A stretch of 64,000 bases of DNA, from NCBI GenBank assembly GCA_025055755.1, contig JANWWF010000001.1, positions 476,670-540,669 on the forward strand, read 5' to 3'. The translations under genes were made by a program, and so were the position numbers. This document shows, piece after piece, positions 29,486-39,888 of the stretch (the stretch's first letter is position 1; every line of letters starts with the position of its first letter). The stretch is from Candidatus Kapaibacterium sp. Lineage in GTDB: Bacteria > Bacteroidota > Ignavibacteria > Kapaibacteriales > NICIL-2. The notes under the pieces were generated by a model. It had not been told where the DNA came from, did no database searches, and saw only the letters and a program-made list of their open reading frames with translations.

Positions 29486-32308
29486 TTACCGAACAACAGC
29501 AACTCTGGAGTGAAATACGCCTGTCGGCGTAATAATCCTCACCAACATTACTCCACTCGGAATATTGCCCAGAGGAATAGCCAGCGAGCTGTTTACTCCA
29601 TTTCCAAGGATAGCTTGCTTTCGTTCAAGCACTTTTCCATCAATAGTCACTATTTCCACTGCATAAATGCCCTCTGAAGCATCGCGCACCTCGATTTGCA
29701 GTTGGTCTGTTGCAGGGTTGGGTAATACTGTGATTGCTGTGCGATCACGAACAATAATATCCCGCGGAAAACAGTACGTGTTTAACGTGAGCACTCCGTT
29801 GCGGACCTGCACAACCGGCTGCTTAAGAACATCGCGGACGGTAATTGTTGCGATGAGAACAGAATCGTGGAATTGGGTCGAGGCAAGCCCGATACCACTA
29901 ATGATCCCCAGTAGCACAGGCTCTGTGTTCCGCAGCGAAATATCTTGCCGCACTATGCGAATGCTATACCAACCATTCGCATCAATCACTGCACTGAGGA
30001 CTGTTCCCAGGTGGACCTGGCGAAAATCGAACATCTTCGCGTTGATGCGCACAGTGTATTCAACCGTTGCGTCAATAATCGAATCCTGGGCATTGACCAG
30101 CTGGAGATGGAGGGGGATGTCGATTGTTTCCCCTATTGTGCCGCGGGTACTGATGACCGTTGCAATTGCCGGAATACGTTTGTCATAGGATGACAGATTC
30201 AATACCTGAATGTAAGTCCAGGGACATGGAAGCACGACCTCAAGCTCTACTCGAACGATAGTCGTATCTGGCACTTGGGGCAAATACTGCAGATGGACAT
30301 TGAGCCGCTCGCCAACGCGAAGGACCTGACCGTTGACATTGGCAATCTGCCGCCCTTCGATATCAAGCTTAACAATGCGCAGGTCGGGATGATATGGTGT
30401 TAGGCGAAGGGCGCGGAGGGTTAGCGGCTCATCGTCGGTGTTGATGAAGTAGATCGTTTGCGCTGGGTAGTCCAACAATGTTTCCCGGTTGGTAAACTGC
30501 GTGTTGCCTCCCACATTCATTGAAACTGGATTGAACTCGGTGGAAAATGGCTCAGAGCTTCCTTCACAACCGATGCTATCAGTAACGGTAACCATAAACG
30601 TCCCTGGCTCGGAGATAGCAATTGTCGGTGTTGTTTGTCCAGAACTCCAGCGGTATGTCGAAAAGCCTGGTGTTGCCCGAAGCTCGATAGTAGTTCCTGC
30701 ACAGAACTTTCGTGGACCACTTATCGTTGGTCGAGGGGTAGTATTGGCTCGGATATGTGCAGGCGGCGAGGTATTTGTGCATCCCTGACTATCGGTCACC
30801 GTTACCGTGTATATTCCCGCTTGCTGATCGTTGAGGGTTATTCGTCGCGACCGCGCTCCGTTCGACCACACATAGTCAACATAGCCTTCCCCAGCATCAA
30901 GTGTTGTCATTTCTCCAGGGCAGAGGTGGGCACGCCCTTCCACACGAATCTCTGGTGTCGGTAGCGGGTGCACTCTCACTGTGGCCTCTGCAAAATAATC
31001 GCAGCCTTTGCCTTGATCATACACGCTGAGACTAACTCGCGACAGTCCACTACTATCCCATCGAATCCGCACAATATTCGACATCGGATCACTAACTATA
31101 ACTCCACCTGCTCCCTCTACTTGCCACAGGTAGGTGAAGAGCCGGTTGTACACAGTGCCAAAAATGATAGTCTTACCTTGACAGATTTCCGGCGGCAACG
31201 CAAACTCTGCAACAGGTGGTTCGGTAACTACAACGGTCATTGTGGCACGTTGAGTACAGCCTTGTTGATCGCGCACAATCAGGCGATACATCCGCGTTGC
31301 CGGTGGCACAAGGCGTTGGACCAGTGCCCGACGATCAATAGAATCGGAAACAGGACGCCCTTGGTTATCGAAGACCTCCCACCAGTATTCATATGGCGGT
31401 ACTCCGCCACTAACCATTGTTGAATCGCCCAGTTGGATTTCTTTCCCATAGCAAATCGAAGTATCACGCAACCGTAGCGTCATTGCTGGTTTGACACGTA
31501 CCAGAATACTATCAGTTCGCACACACCCCTTTGCATCAGTAACGGTGCAAAAGTACTGGGTGGTCACAGTCGGGAAGACAGTAGGATTGGGAACTGTCGG
31601 CGAACTCATGCTCCCAGCTGGTGACCACTCGATACGATAGGGAGCAGTCCCCCCATTTGCCAGTGGGTTTGCACCGATTTGGACTGGTTCACCAGCACAA
31701 ATCTCCAGCACACGTTGGCGGAACGCCAATGTGATTGGTTGAGTGATGGAAATGTGTGCAGTATCAACTGCACTGCAGCCACGAGCATCGGTCACACGGA
31801 GCACCACCTGGAAATCCTGCACACGATCGGCTCGAAATACGGGATTTGAGCTGTTGATATTCCGGGCAGTTCCTGGTAATCCAAACCATTCAAAGTGGTA
31901 TGGACTTTCTCCCCCATACGCTGTCGGGGTCCCCCCCAGCGTGACATCTTGACCAACACAGACTTGGATTATTCCTCCTGCACTTATCCGCGGAGGCAGC
32001 AACATGATAAGAAAGACAGTATCACGCCCCACCGCCCCATCTGCATCGGTAACGGTGAGGATGTACCGCTGATGGCTTCGAAGCGCAGTTAGGAGTGGAT
32101 TAGGCGCCGTCGGGTCGCTCAAGCCTACACTAGGCTCCCAGTGGTACTGATAAGGAGCTCTACCACCCAAAGCGGTCGGCGAACCACCAAGACGTACCGT
32201 CATTCCCTGACATAACTGGAGGGTATCCTTCCCGGCATCGACAACAATCTGCGCGTGCAGAATCTGCAGCCATGCACTCACGCAGAAAGCGGCTACGATT
32301 GTCCGCAT
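29486..32308 (-). CDS. Large secreted PKD/Ig-like-repeat protein with T9SS type A sorting domain
   Basis: Signal peptide MRTIVAAFCVSAWLQILHAQ; repeated modules C-x-G...LGG-x-P-x-A-x-GG-x-x-PY-x-x-x-W...TVTDAxGC; C-terminal VLPNPATDQLQIEVRDASEGIYAVEIVTIDGKVLERKQ...SGVMLVRIITPTGVFHSRVAVVR. Confidence 0.92.
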   Translation of the reverse strand: MRTIVAAFCVSAWLQILHAQIVVDAGKDTLQLCQGMTVRLGGSPTALGGRAPYQYHWEPSVGLSDPTAPNPLLTALRSHQRYILTVTDADGAVGRDTVFLIMLLPPRISAGGIIQVCVGQDVTLGGTPTAYGGESPYHFEWFGLPGTARNINSSNPVFRADRVQDFQVVLRVTDARGCSAVDTAHISITQPITLAFRQRVLEICAGEPVQIGANPLANGGTAPYRIEWSPAGSMSSPTVPNPTVFPTVTTQYFCTVTDAKGCVRTDSILVRVKPAMTLRLRDTSICYGKEIQLGDSTMVSGGVPPYEYWWEVFDNQGRPVSDSIDRRALVQRLVPPATRMYRLIVRDQQGCTQRATMTVVVTEPPVAEFALPPEICQGKTIIFGTVYNRLFTYLWQVEGAGGVIVSDPMSNIVRIRWDSSGLSRVSLSVYDQGKGCDYFAEATVRVHPLPTPEIRVEGRAHLCPGEMTTLDAGEGYVDYVWSNGARSRRITLNDQQAGIYTVTVTDSQGCTNTSPPAHIRANTTPRPTISGPRKFCAGTTIELRATPGFSTYRWSSGQTTPTIAISEPGTFMVTVTDSIGCEGSSEPFSTEFNPVSMNVGGNTQFTNRETLLDYPAQTIYFINTDDEPLTLRALRLTPYHPDLRIVKLDIEGRQIANVNGQVLRVGERLNVHLQYLPQVPDTTIVRVELEVVLPCPWTYIQVLNLSSYDKRIPAIATVISTRGTIGETIDIPLHLQLVNAQDSIIDATVEYTVRINAKMFDFRQVHLGTVLSAVIDANGWYSIRIVRQDISLRNTEPVLLGIISGIGLASTQFHDSVLIATITVRDVLKQPVVQVRNGVLTLNTYCFPRDIIVRDRTAITVLPNPATDQLQIEVRDASEGIYAVEIVTIDGKVLERKQAILGNGVNSSLAIPLGNIPSGVMLVRIITPTGVFHSRVAVVR

Positions 32309-32394
32309 AGCGTGACCGGGATATGGTATCTTGTCCAACAAAAGCAGCATAAACTGTGCCAGGCCCCCGAAGGAAATGCTTCATTCGCTCTTCT

Positions 32395-35398: not shown

Positions 35399-37177
35399 TC
35401 AGCGCTTGCCTGCATGGTCGAGTGGACTGGGCAGCAAGGGAGGCTTTGGGAAACTATCCTCCAAGGGGCGAAGTTCAGCATCCTCGACCAATAGGTCTGG
35501 CGTTGCAACAGTTGCAATCACATATGGTGCACCACCGCTGCGATACGGGGAAATCACCGAAGGTGCAAGCAAATTATGCACGTAGAGCCCTTGCCCCACT
35601 GCTATGACATCGCGGAAAATCTGATACCCCCCGGGAACCACCATGCCTCCGCGTACACGCTCACGGCGACCATCCCGCCATATCCGCTCTATGACAAGAG
35701 CTGGAAGTTGCCCTTCACCACCTGTAGGGAATGTTCCACCGGTTTGCTGGTACACAGCCGTATAGAGCAAGTTTTGGTTGAGTATCTCTGAAACGATGTA
35801 ACCGTACGGCAGATCGCGACGTCGCAAAATTTGCAGCATCCGTTCAACTAACTGCTGCTCACGGAGCTGCTTTCGCCGGTCATCGGTGCGAAGAAGCAGA
35901 ACATCGTACATCGCTCCTCCACCACGGGAGCGTCCATTGGACAAGCGTATCCGCCGTGTTGGCGTGCGGGAGCTGAGAAGATGCTCCAAATACCCCTGCC
36001 GCACCAACACCAAAGGTTTTGGCTCTATTCCTTCATCGTCAATCCGATATGCCGCAGCTACAGGGGTTGGTCCGATCTGTGTGCGGTTGGGCACGCTTTC
36101 AACACTCAAGAATTCCGCCATCACTCGCGCACCGATTTTGTTCTGCAGCGCGGTGAAGCGATCTTGCTCCCGCACTCCCTGCTCGGTGAGCGGAGAACGC
36201 TGAGCAACAAGGAGTGGAGCAAAGACCTGGGCAAAAAGCTCCGCTGCTGCCTGTCCACGAAACAGGATAGGACCTGAATATGGCTCAGTGAGTGCAGGAG
36301 CAGAGCGCTGCATCGTGAGCGATTCAACTACATGCTGCATTGCACGCTTGAGAGAATCCCAGGACGGCAAGTCTGCTACTGTCTGACCGTATACTGCATA
36401 CGTCTGGGCAAGAGGCATACCATCGGACGCTTGGGAGGTTGCAACAATTTCGAGTCCCACCTGCCGGTGCACCTTGATATAACTCCGCCCTTCGCTGTTG
36501 ACGTAGATGACCAGCTCAGGTAAATGTTCAAACGTCACTGTTGCAGTGTGAACTGCCGGATAATGTCGCGCGATCGCGGAGATCTGGCGTAGCTGCTCGA
36601 CGACTTGTCTCAAATCCACGCGGGGAATCGGAGCAGCAGTATCATACAGTGCTGCTGCGGATAGGGGAACAAAGTCTGGCGTGGTATCGCGTTGCACAAG
36701 GTTCTTAAGAACTGCCTCTTTCTTGGCAAGTTGCTCAACAGCTGCCTTATAGGCAGCATCAGTTGCAAGCCACAGCTCTCGACGCAAAACGCCATAACTG
36801 AGTTCACGAGGAATAGTACGGTTGCGGAAGCTTTCGTCGTCGTCGCCACTACCGAAAAACAATGCTGCTGCGTCGAAAAAATTCGTGTTATCACGCTCTG
36901 GAGAGCCGACACGGATACCAACACTTAGTCGAGCACTTCGTGTTTGCCCACTGTCGAGAACGCCCCCCAAAGCAACTTTTGCTCGAGCAGACCACCGATA
37001 GCGGAATGTGTATTCGATGTAGTACGGCTTGCGGAGCGATTCTATCGAAAGGCTATCCATCGAGCGAGCAAGTTCATCGTGCATTGCACGGCGAACAGGC
37101 TCTACCCACGGAGGAAGCTGTGCCCATCCGGACATCAGCACAGCTACGAAAGTCCATCCACCTACGATCCACTTCAC
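35399..37177 (-). CDS. Exported TldD/PmbA-like protein, metal site degenerate
   Basis: GTG start with signal-peptide-like MKWIVGGWTFVAVLMSGWAQ; paralogous to the upstream gene (RVGSPERDNTN vs RVGSYQLDNTH; YSGPILFRGQAAAELFAQVFA vs YAGPAILSGRAAGVFFHEIFGH); C-terminal KPPLLPSP. Confidence 0.75.
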   Translation of the reverse strand: MKWIVGGWTFVAVLMSGWAQLPPWVEPVRRAMHDELARSMDSLSIESLRKPYYIEYTFRYRWSARAKVALGGVLDSGQTRSARLSVGIRVGSPERDNTNFFDAAALFFGSGDDDESFRNRTIPRELSYGVLRRELWLATDAAYKAAVEQLAKKEAVLKNLVQRDTTPDFVPLSAAALYDTAAPIPRVDLRQVVEQLRQISAIARHYPAVHTATVTFEHLPELVIYVNSEGRSYIKVHRQVGLEIVATSQASDGMPLAQTYAVYGQTVADLPSWDSLKRAMQHVVESLTMQRSAPALTEPYSGPILFRGQAAAELFAQVFAPLLVAQRSPLTEQGVREQDRFTALQNKIGARVMAEFLSVESVPNRTQIGPTPVAAAYRIDDEGIEPKPLVLVRQGYLEHLLSSRTPTRRIRLSNGRSRGGGAMYDVLLLRTDDRRKQLREQQLVERMLQILRRRDLPYGYIVSEILNQNLLYTAVYQQTGGTFPTGGEGQLPALVIERIWRDGRRERVRGGMVVPGGYQIFRDVIAVGQGLYVHNLLAPSVISPYRSGGAPYVIATVATPDLLVEDAELRPLEDSFPKPPLLPSPLDHAGKR

Positions 37178-38925
37178 GGGGACACCTCCTCCACCGTAGA
37201 AGGTGGTGGCGGCAACAAAGGCGGTTTTGACTGGGATTTTGCTTTCTTTTGTACCTCAAGGGTTGAAACCAGCAGCGCTGGTGAGCATGCTGAAACAGGC
37301 ACATTCCCCGACTCAGCCCCACATATGCCATTGAATACACCGATTTCCTTCGATGCCGCAACGATATTCGAAAATGTTGCCAGGGGCGTTCCAATAAAAT
37401 CTACCCCACGCACTAATTCATCCGGCGAGCCATCGGCAAACACTTTATACACCACCAGTGGTTGGACTGTGAAGGCGTTTGGAATTGTGCGGCTGGTGAA
37501 TGTAAACCCACCGGCAATGTCGTCAAAGTAGAGCCCGTAAGGCTTCCCTGTCCGACGGCACTCAGCACGGAGATATGCTTTAAGCGAATCCAATGGCACA
37601 GTTTGGTGAGCCACCACTATCAGATTCGATTGACGGGCGACAGGCATCGCACCGGCCTGCTTTCGTCCGTGTCCATTTGACTGGGGGAATCCTTCGATAG
37701 GAGACCGCGACATCAAAAAGTTTCGAAATACTCCTTGCTGAACGCTAACAACACGCTGGGCAGGGACACCTTCGTCGTCAAAGCGATAGCTTCCGGCAAG
37801 CTCAACTCCTGCGTAGTGGTGAAGTGTCGGATCGAACACGACATCCAAGAACGGGGGGAAAAGCTGCTTCCCTACAAATGGCTTGAGTGTTTGGCTCGAG
37901 GTAGGATCCTTGATGCGATGTCCCTCGACTCGGTGTCCGAAAATCTCGTGAAAGAATACTCCTGCTGCACGCCCGGAGAGGATAGCAGGGCCAGCATAAG
38001 AATCAAGAACTGGTGCATTCCGCAATTGCGCAAGGAGCTCCACCACTGCACGCACATCACGCAACAACGAGTCATAGGATGGAAGCCCTTGTTCAGCGCG
38101 TGCAAGATACGTCCGATAGAGGGGCAGAGTCATTCCATCCTCCGCTTTGGCACGCACCACAATAGCCAGCCTCCACAGAGGTTCGTTTGTTACGATGGTG
38201 GTTCCTTCGCTGGTGACAAGGTACTTGCGCAGTAGTTGCACAGCAAGGCTTATTTGGCTATGCAAGACTGCACTCGATGCTGCCAGTTCACTAGAAAGAG
38301 CGCGTAATTGCGCTGACCAGTGTGCTGTATCACATTGCAATTGCTGTGGCGGCTCATAGTACCGCTGTGGGGGATAGGGAGTAAAGTCTGCCGATGTGTC
38401 TTCTTCTCGGACTTTGACGGCTCGATTGGTAAGTACCTTCTCATACCGTTCGACTGCGGCTTTGTATGCACGATCGGTTGCCTGCCATATCACTTGTCGG
38501 AGGGCATCTTCATCTCCATCGAAAGGCATTTCAAATGACACTTGCCCTCGTCCGAACTGAATACCACTTGACCCGCGAAGAATGTGAGTATTGTCTAACT
38601 GGTAGCTCCCAACGCGAACACTAACATCAAGCAAGCGGCGACGTTCGGTAGCGGCGGTCTCGATAGCTCCCCCCTCAGCAGAAAGCATGATGTTTTGCAC
38701 ATCGTACACCCAATAAGCAACAAAATAGGGCGTTGGGTTGACCGCTCCAAATGCAGTCTGCCAGCGCTGTAGTTCTGTATGAAGTGCTCGGACAACCGTG
38801 TCAGTTGAATCCAGGGAGGATGCAGTTGCGCGTGTCTCTGCAGAAAGCAGTAGTGCAGCGCAAGCAATGCACCGGCACAGCACTGATGCTGCGTGCTGTT
38901 GGATAGTGCTCGCTTGCAGCATCAT
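37174..38925 (-). CDS. Exported TldD-like metallopeptidase-family protein with HExxxH motif
   Basis: Contains AAGVFFHEIFGHRVEGHRI (HEIFGH), GAMPVARQSNLIV, LYFDDIAGGFTFTSR; N-terminal hydrophobic leader HAASVLCRCIACAALLLSAETRA; C-terminal KPPLLPPP. Confidence 0.82.
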   Translation of the reverse strand: MMLQASTIQQHAASVLCRCIACAALLLSAETRATASSLDSTDTVVRALHTELQRWQTAFGAVNPTPYFVAYWVYDVQNIMLSAEGGAIETAATERRRLLDVSVRVGSYQLDNTHILRGSSGIQFGRGQVSFEMPFDGDEDALRQVIWQATDRAYKAAVERYEKVLTNRAVKVREEDTSADFTPYPPQRYYEPPQQLQCDTAHWSAQLRALSSELAASSAVLHSQISLAVQLLRKYLVTSEGTTIVTNEPLWRLAIVVRAKAEDGMTLPLYRTYLARAEQGLPSYDSLLRDVRAVVELLAQLRNAPVLDSYAGPAILSGRAAGVFFHEIFGHRVEGHRIKDPTSSQTLKPFVGKQLFPPFLDVVFDPTLHHYAGVELAGSYRFDDEGVPAQRVVSVQQGVFRNFLMSRSPIEGFPQSNGHGRKQAGAMPVARQSNLIVVAHQTVPLDSLKAYLRAECRRTGKPYGLYFDDIAGGFTFTSRTIPNAFTVQPLVVYKVFADGSPDELVRGVDFIGTPLATFSNIVAASKEIGVFNGICGAESGNVPVSACSPALLVSTLEVQKKAKSQSKPPLLPPPPSTVEEVSP

Positions 38926-39368
38926 TCTTGGCTAATAACCCAGATTTTGAGTGTGCCGACAATGTCTTGGAAGAGGCGTACTTTAACCTCGTAAATACCA
39001 AGCGTTTTGATCGGCTCTTCGATGATAATCGAGCGGCGGTCTATTTGGAAGCCACGCAGCGCAAGCTCGTCGGCAATCATTTGAGGCGTCACAGAGCCAA
39101 AGAGTTTGCCCTCTTCGCCGACGCGCATCGGAATAGAAATCTGCAGTTCCGCCAGTTGGGCTGCAGTAAGTTCTGCCTGCTCTCGCAAGCGCTGTTGTTT
39201 GCGTTCGTAGTGCTTCCGCTCTATTTCAATACGCTTGAGCGCCGATTCCGAAGCATAGTAAGCAAGCTGTCGCGGGATCAGATAGTTCCGTGCATAGCCA
39301 TCGCGCACTTCAACAACATCACCGATCGAGCCAAGTTGAGGGACATTCTCTCGAAGGATGACTTTCAT
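38922..39368 (-). CDS. rplI: 50S ribosomal protein bL9
   Basis: MKVILRENVPQLGSIGDVVEVRDGYARNYLIPRQLAYYAS. Confidence 0.97.
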   Translation of the reverse strand: MKVILRENVPQLGSIGDVVEVRDGYARNYLIPRQLAYYASESALKRIEIERKHYERKQQRLREQAELTAAQLAELQISIPMRVGEEGKLFGSVTPQMIADELALRGFQIDRRSIIIEEPIKTLGIYEVKVRLFQDIVGTLKIWVISQE

Positions 39369-39394
39369 GGTAATTGTACTGGGATGTGATGGTA

Positions 39395-39811
39395 CTAATT
39401 GCCTGTTGTCGTCTCAGATACCGCAGCCGACGTTGGTGCTGATGTTCCCGTCGCTGCTGCAGGCGCCGATTGCTGCTCTGCTATGCTTGCTCGGTTTTTC
39501 CGGTACTCAATGAGCCGTTGAGAAAGCTGAAGTGTCAAATGGCGGAGGACGCTATCGTCGAGCAGCAAGTAGCGCTCAATAATTGGAACCGCATTCGGTG
39601 GCGCCTCAAAAATGCAATGAACATAGTAGCCATTGTACTTTTTCTTGATTGCATATGCCATGCGTCGCCGTCCCCAGCGATTGATCTCACGGATAGTTCC
39701 CCCGTGGTGTTCAATGTACTCGCTGATTCGAGTGATGGCCTCCTCGATTTCTGGATCCTCGAGCGCGGCGTTGAGAATATACGTGGTTTCGTATAAACGA
39801 CGGTTACTCAT
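39395..39811 (-). CDS. rpsF: 30S ribosomal protein bS6
   Basis: MSNRRLYETTYILNAALEDPEIEEAITRISEYIEHHGGTIREINRWGRRRMAYAIKKKYNGYYVHCIFEAPP; low-complexity C-terminal tail. Confidence 0.95.
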   Translation of the reverse strand: MSNRRLYETTYILNAALEDPEIEEAITRISEYIEHHGGTIREINRWGRRRMAYAIKKKYNGYYVHCIFEAPPNAVPIIERYLLLDDSVLRHLTLQLSQRLIEYRKNRASIAEQQSAPAAATGTSAPTSAAVSETTTGN

Positions 39812-39888
39812 GACCAACTAAACTCCTACGGATAGTGAACAGACTGTCACTAATCAACGCATCCAAGGGTGCGCTGATAGGATGGATT

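Follow-up and report, generated by a model that had tools for sequence, protein, structure and literature searches.

Two adjacent genes in the window (the whole 64,000-nucleotide stretch of DNA that was analysed) probably encode a heterodimeric metallopeptidase that resembles TldD/TldE of Escherichia coli in its design, is exported through Sec and most likely resides in the periplasm. Gene A (37174..38925, minus strand; ATG start, 583 aa) encodes the predicted exported TldD-like catalytic subunit, and gene B (35399..37177, minus strand; GTG start, 592 aa) its predicted exported non-catalytic partner; the ORF list and the sequence place both reading frames on the minus strand at these positions. 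The two genes overlap by 4 nt (GTGA), and the stop codon of rplI (ribosomal protein L9; 38922..39368, minus strand; PF03948 and PF01281, and sequence), directly upstream of A, overlaps the A start codon by 4 nt (ATGA), while ugd (UDP-glucose dehydrogenase gene) begins 11 nt after B. There is therefore no room for a precursor-peptide gene within the rplI-A-B-ugd run, in agreement with an earlier note on this DNA that saw no short precursor gene beside the pair. The same note had described the genes as adjacent, overlapping paralogs of ~590 aa, which holds once the sizes are corrected to 583 and 592 aa: BLASTP aligned A and B almost end to end (29% identity over 565 aa, E = 1e-41). Further upstream, the spacing between rpsF and rplI is only 26 nt (window 38922-39817), so that rpsR, often found between the two, must be located elsewhere.

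Pfam searches detected the C-terminal domain of the family, PF19289, in both A (96 bits) and B (39.5 bits) above the curated cut-off of 22, and this, together with recurrence of the pair across related genomes, places A and B far beyond chance. The search against PF01523 that the earlier note had proposed gave no match: PF19289 alone was found, with neither PF01523 nor PF19290 (the N-terminal and central domains) matching A or B at E ≤ 10. Scores of A against the NCBIfam equivalog models of canonical TldD/TldE were 75.7, 47.4 and 13.1 bits where the cut-offs are 635, 513 and 438 bits, respectively, and A is thus not a canonical cytosolic TldD/TldE equivalog. B had no sequence match in the PDB. 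AlphaFold models were obtained for A (pLDDT 88.1, pTM 0.85) and B (pLDDT 91.6, pTM 0.91). Foldseek returned E. coli TldD as the best PDB match of the A model (E 1.3e-32, TMt 0.79) and a match of E 6.6e-26 for the B model, and the PDB matches with E < 0.001 for either protein were solely the 16 TldD/TldE chains. Structural alignments to TldD chains spanned 527-583 columns; as they exceed 520 columns, the N-terminal halves of A and B are also predicted to have the TldD fold, although Pfam missed them. The modelled structures clearly assign both proteins to the TldD/TldE superfamily (MEROPS M103), as the earlier note had proposed in calling them TldD/PmbA-like. Chance open reading frames and a frameshifted pseudogene were ruled out by recurrence in relatives, invariant residues and the confident structure models.

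The metal site is complete in A and lost in B. In E. coli TldD the ligands of Zn or Fe are His262, His267 and Cys454, and the motif also contains the catalytic Glu263, whereas TldE lacks all three ligands and has no activity (PMC5810440). HMMER alignment to 5nj5 placed the HEIFGH motif of A at residues 326-331 (37933..37950, minus strand), equivalent to residues 262-267 of TldD. The counterpart of the third ligand, Cys454, is Cys535 of A (37321..37323, minus strand), which was aligned to TldD VCGKEG, the equivalence being taken from the HMMER pairwise alignment and the alignment within the A family. H326, E327, H331 and C535 were invariant in all 99 A homologs, which span Kapabacteria, Ignavibacteria, Acidobacteria, Planctomycetota, Aminicenantes, Gemmatimonadetes, Bacteroidales and others. 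TldD Lys456 and Asp272 are not conserved in A homologs (Ala537 and His336 in the A protein of the window), and the clamp around the site therefore differs in detail from that of TldD. In the BLASTP alignment the HEIFGH position of B is occupied by AQVFAP (residues 316-321; 36215..36232, minus strand), in the context ELFAQVFAP; B contains no cysteine at all, and HExxxH was absent from every B homolog examined. The motif in the first gene, the missing metal-binding histidines in the second and the resulting parallel to TldD/TldE had all been read correctly in the earlier note, and the parallel extends to the distal cysteine, present in A and lost in B.

Both proteins carry predicted Sec-type leaders. 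That of A covers approximately residues 1-35 (38821..38925, minus strand; cleavage point estimated; Kyte-Doolittle mean 2.55 over 10 aa) and reads MMLQASTIQQHAASVLCRCIACAALLLSAETRATA, followed by SS after a guessed cleavage point; that of B, found by the leader rule, covers approximately residues 1-19 (37121..37177, minus strand; cleavage point likewise estimated) and reads VKWIVGGWTFVAVLMSGWA, followed, again after a guessed cleavage point, by QLPP. The leader region of A is a low-confidence tail in the AlphaFold model, and residues 2-16 of B are of low confidence in theirs. A Sec-type leader was found in 97 of the 99 A homologs and in 88/88 B homologs using a rule (a 10-residue hydrophobic stretch with a mean ≥ 1.6 near a start codon and a non-negative n-region) rather than SignalP; as the best-scoring start was chosen, single cases may err, but the overall homolog pattern does not. 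The same kind of rule gave a leader in 0/30 canonical TldE-like proteins, 20 of which have a sequence before the conserved block that is too short for any leader, and HES-type TldD sequences were left out of this control, as their conserved block already starts at the RR motif. Pfam found no T9SS sorting tail in A or B, and lipobox-like leaders were rare (8/99 A and 7/88 B homologs), which favours a periplasmic over a surface location. From these features, A and B are most likely soluble, periplasmic proteins; thus the signal-peptide-like leaders described previously were upheld, and of the suggested "periplasmic or surface" location the periplasmic part is retained and the surface part is disfavoured. 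Elsewhere in the window (29486-32350), a PKD-domain protein of 954 aa carries a C-terminal T9SS sorting domain (PF18962), so that a type IX secretion system is probably present in the organism.

The relationship of the pair to TldD and TldE was examined by profile comparison and by a tree of the C-terminal domain from which the metal-site columns were excluded. Profile comparison scores were 897 for A-B, 414 for TldD-TldE, 264 for A-TldD and 150 for B-TldE, and the tree split A and B from TldD and TldE with a support of 100/100; on the sequence data, A and B are each other's closest relatives, with TldD and TldE falling outside their group. Wherever the root lies, two changes of catalytic state are required, and an arrangement holding all catalytic proteins together (A with TldD, and a single loss) was rejected by the AU test (p-AU 1.1e-5). 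From these two results, catalytic activity in the partner was lost at least twice, unless it was regained, with the caveat of long branches in the Tat-type groups. The possibility that B is an exported TldE was ruled out by the tree and the AU test; B arose on the side of A.

Among 297 sampled genomes of the phylum, every one from the order to which the window's genome belongs contained the A/B family, and few from outside that order did; the family is also scattered widely over unrelated phyla. Within the order, A occurred in every genome (41/41), and B was missing from a single one, in which A sits at the end of a contig; the genomes lacking one of the two genes are fragmented assemblies. 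A canonical TldD/TldE pair was additionally present in just three of the 41 relatives. The genome that contains the window, a relative of Kapabacteria, is 99% complete at 2.33 Mb and has no PF19289 gene besides A and B; the pair, as its sole TldD/TldE-type genes, is therefore not a decaying spare copy. Among named relatives, Chlorobiota SKW43 and Candidatus Kapabacteria KatS3mg039/040 are the nearest. A viral origin was ruled out, no relative having been found in viral contigs. Gene order in the window's genus is rpsF-rplI-A-B-ugd, with rplI upstream in the sampled members, whereas the upstream gene is gpmA-like in 48 other loci (neighbour names were read from the sequences); function could not be read from neighbours that differ in this way.

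Peptidase activity of the pair is suggested by analogy with TldD/TldE, and other substrates were considered. It is unlikely that the complex is an exported amidohydrolase other than a peptidase, stripping a small molecule or a cell-wall fragment of an acyl or amide group. TldD-type N-deacetylases act in this way in natural-product pathways, the family is named "peptidases and N-deacetylases" in the title of a work cited as ref. 135 in PMC10885120, the clamp residues of A differ from those of TldD, and at many loci A shares an operon with gpmA and a gene for a GlmU-like nucleotidyltransferase (names again read from the sequences). However, the window's genus and other phyla have different gene neighbourhoods, so that the pair is linked to no particular pathway, and A still has an intact metal site and the whole TldD fold. 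It is similarly improbable that A/B is dedicated to maturing a single exported product, whether a peptide or a protein (a T9SS cargo or secreted RiPP, for instance): canonical TldD/E is responsible for maturing microcin B17 and further RiPPs, although their own gene clusters lack it (PMC10885120), but the operon has no space for a precursor gene, the pair is universal in the order regardless of its neighbours, and its scatter over unrelated phyla fits a general role better.

The synteny survey in related genomes proposed in the earlier note showed that the pair recurs; wherever the genes are linked (86/86 loci, a number that includes duplicate records of the same genomes), both share a strand and A comes first. 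In 12 of the 41 genomes the genes are unlinked and yet both are retained, which favours a partnership. Natural A-B fusions, in a single open frame of 1124-1189 aa, were found in four lineages, namely Kapabacteria (L069/L122), Bacteroidales (L173), Gemmatimonadetes (L190) and Eisenbacteria (L192), and every fusion has a single leader before the A half and none before the B half. The fusions support a heterodimer, and with their single leader they are the best, though indirect, evidence that A and B form one exported 1:1 complex. Distance matrices of A and B were correlated (r = 0.91 over 74 loci), a correlation that partly reflects shared species history. That exported A acts as a homodimer, with exported B a separate binding protein, is very improbable. 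The lack of linkage in 12/41 genomes speaks for it, as does a Sulfolobus TldD homodimer reported to be active (in work cited in PMC5810440), but the fusions in four lineages and the co-occurrence of both genes in nearly all genomes stand against it. In some lineages (L103, L105, L144, L145, L146, L147, L153, L157 and L170) a gene of ~170-190 aa lies between A and B; its product has likely membrane segments, is weakly DUF6141-like (PF19638) and is possibly a membrane partner.

The heterodimeric, exported peptidase would operate as follows. Sec transports chains unfolded, and each subunit therefore needs its own leader, as seen in A and B; each would cross the inner membrane unfolded and then fold. 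Folded A and B would pair into a hollow shell in which A carries the Zn/Fe site (H326, E327, H331 and C535) and B contributes the second half of the shell without taking part in catalysis. TldD/E has been described as a "molecular pencil sharpener" whose narrow channel admits unfolded peptides (PMC5810440). In A/B, likewise, such peptides would pass a narrow pore and be clipped without sequence specificity, and A/B is on this analogy most likely a size-selective peptidase of the periplasm. Its likely role would be to clear away or trim unfolded peptides within the envelope, and placing the TldD/E design beyond the inner membrane would provide a size-selective periplasmic peptidase that works without ATP.

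We tentatively propose, with somewhat less than even confidence, that A/B represents an unrecognised, widespread class of envelope protease, in which a Sec-exported, size-selecting shell with an independently evolved inactive subunit performs ATP-free quality control of periplasmic peptides. TldD/TldE is common in prokaryotes and has been studied as a cytosolic enzyme, and its general function has been called elusive (PMC5810440). A clade that exports both subunits, is present throughout an order and mostly occurs without the cytosolic pair would offer a direct route to the purpose of this type of protease, the separately evolved inactive partner of A would provide a handle on why it needs a dead twin, and the natural A-B fusions are ready-made single-chain versions for structural work.

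Among known systems, a family member has been reported outside the cytoplasm, as predicted for A and B, in Myxococcus xanthus, where MXAN_2519, a "Peptidase U62", is enriched in outer membrane vesicles (PMC4158809). No other exported TldD was found in the open-access literature, subscription journals being outside the scope of the search. Canonical-type TldD proteins of Bacteroidota (L114, L115, L202-L207 and L228-L247) have a Tat-like start (RRDFLK and similar) in 16/18 HES-type and 9/21 other sequences, and the adjoining TldE-like partner has no leader, a pattern consistent with a folded complex being exported piggy-back. TldD-like and TldE-like genes also occur in tandem arrays within single Bacteroidota genomes (three plus three at L228:1227-10697, and three plus two at L244:1709-9440). 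The Bacteroidota pairs and arrays (L202-L207 and L228-L247) resemble A/B in being probably exported with a catalytic and a non-catalytic subunit, and differ in having an RRxF Tat-like leader on the catalytic subunit beside a leaderless partner and in lying nearer to canonical TldD/TldE in the tree. If the proposed class is real, then together with Tat-routed TldD and leaderless TldE it would mean that export of a TldD/TldE-type protease has evolved by two mechanisms. E. coli TldD/TldE (PmbA; MEROPS M103, formerly U62) shares with A/B the subunit folds, the pairing of two proteins and the presence of HExxxH and the distal cysteine in one subunit only. The E. coli proteins are cytosolic and consist of 481 and 450 aa, whereas A and B are longer by ~100 aa or more, have Sec leaders and form their own clade, in which the catalytic loss of B is separate from that of TldE.
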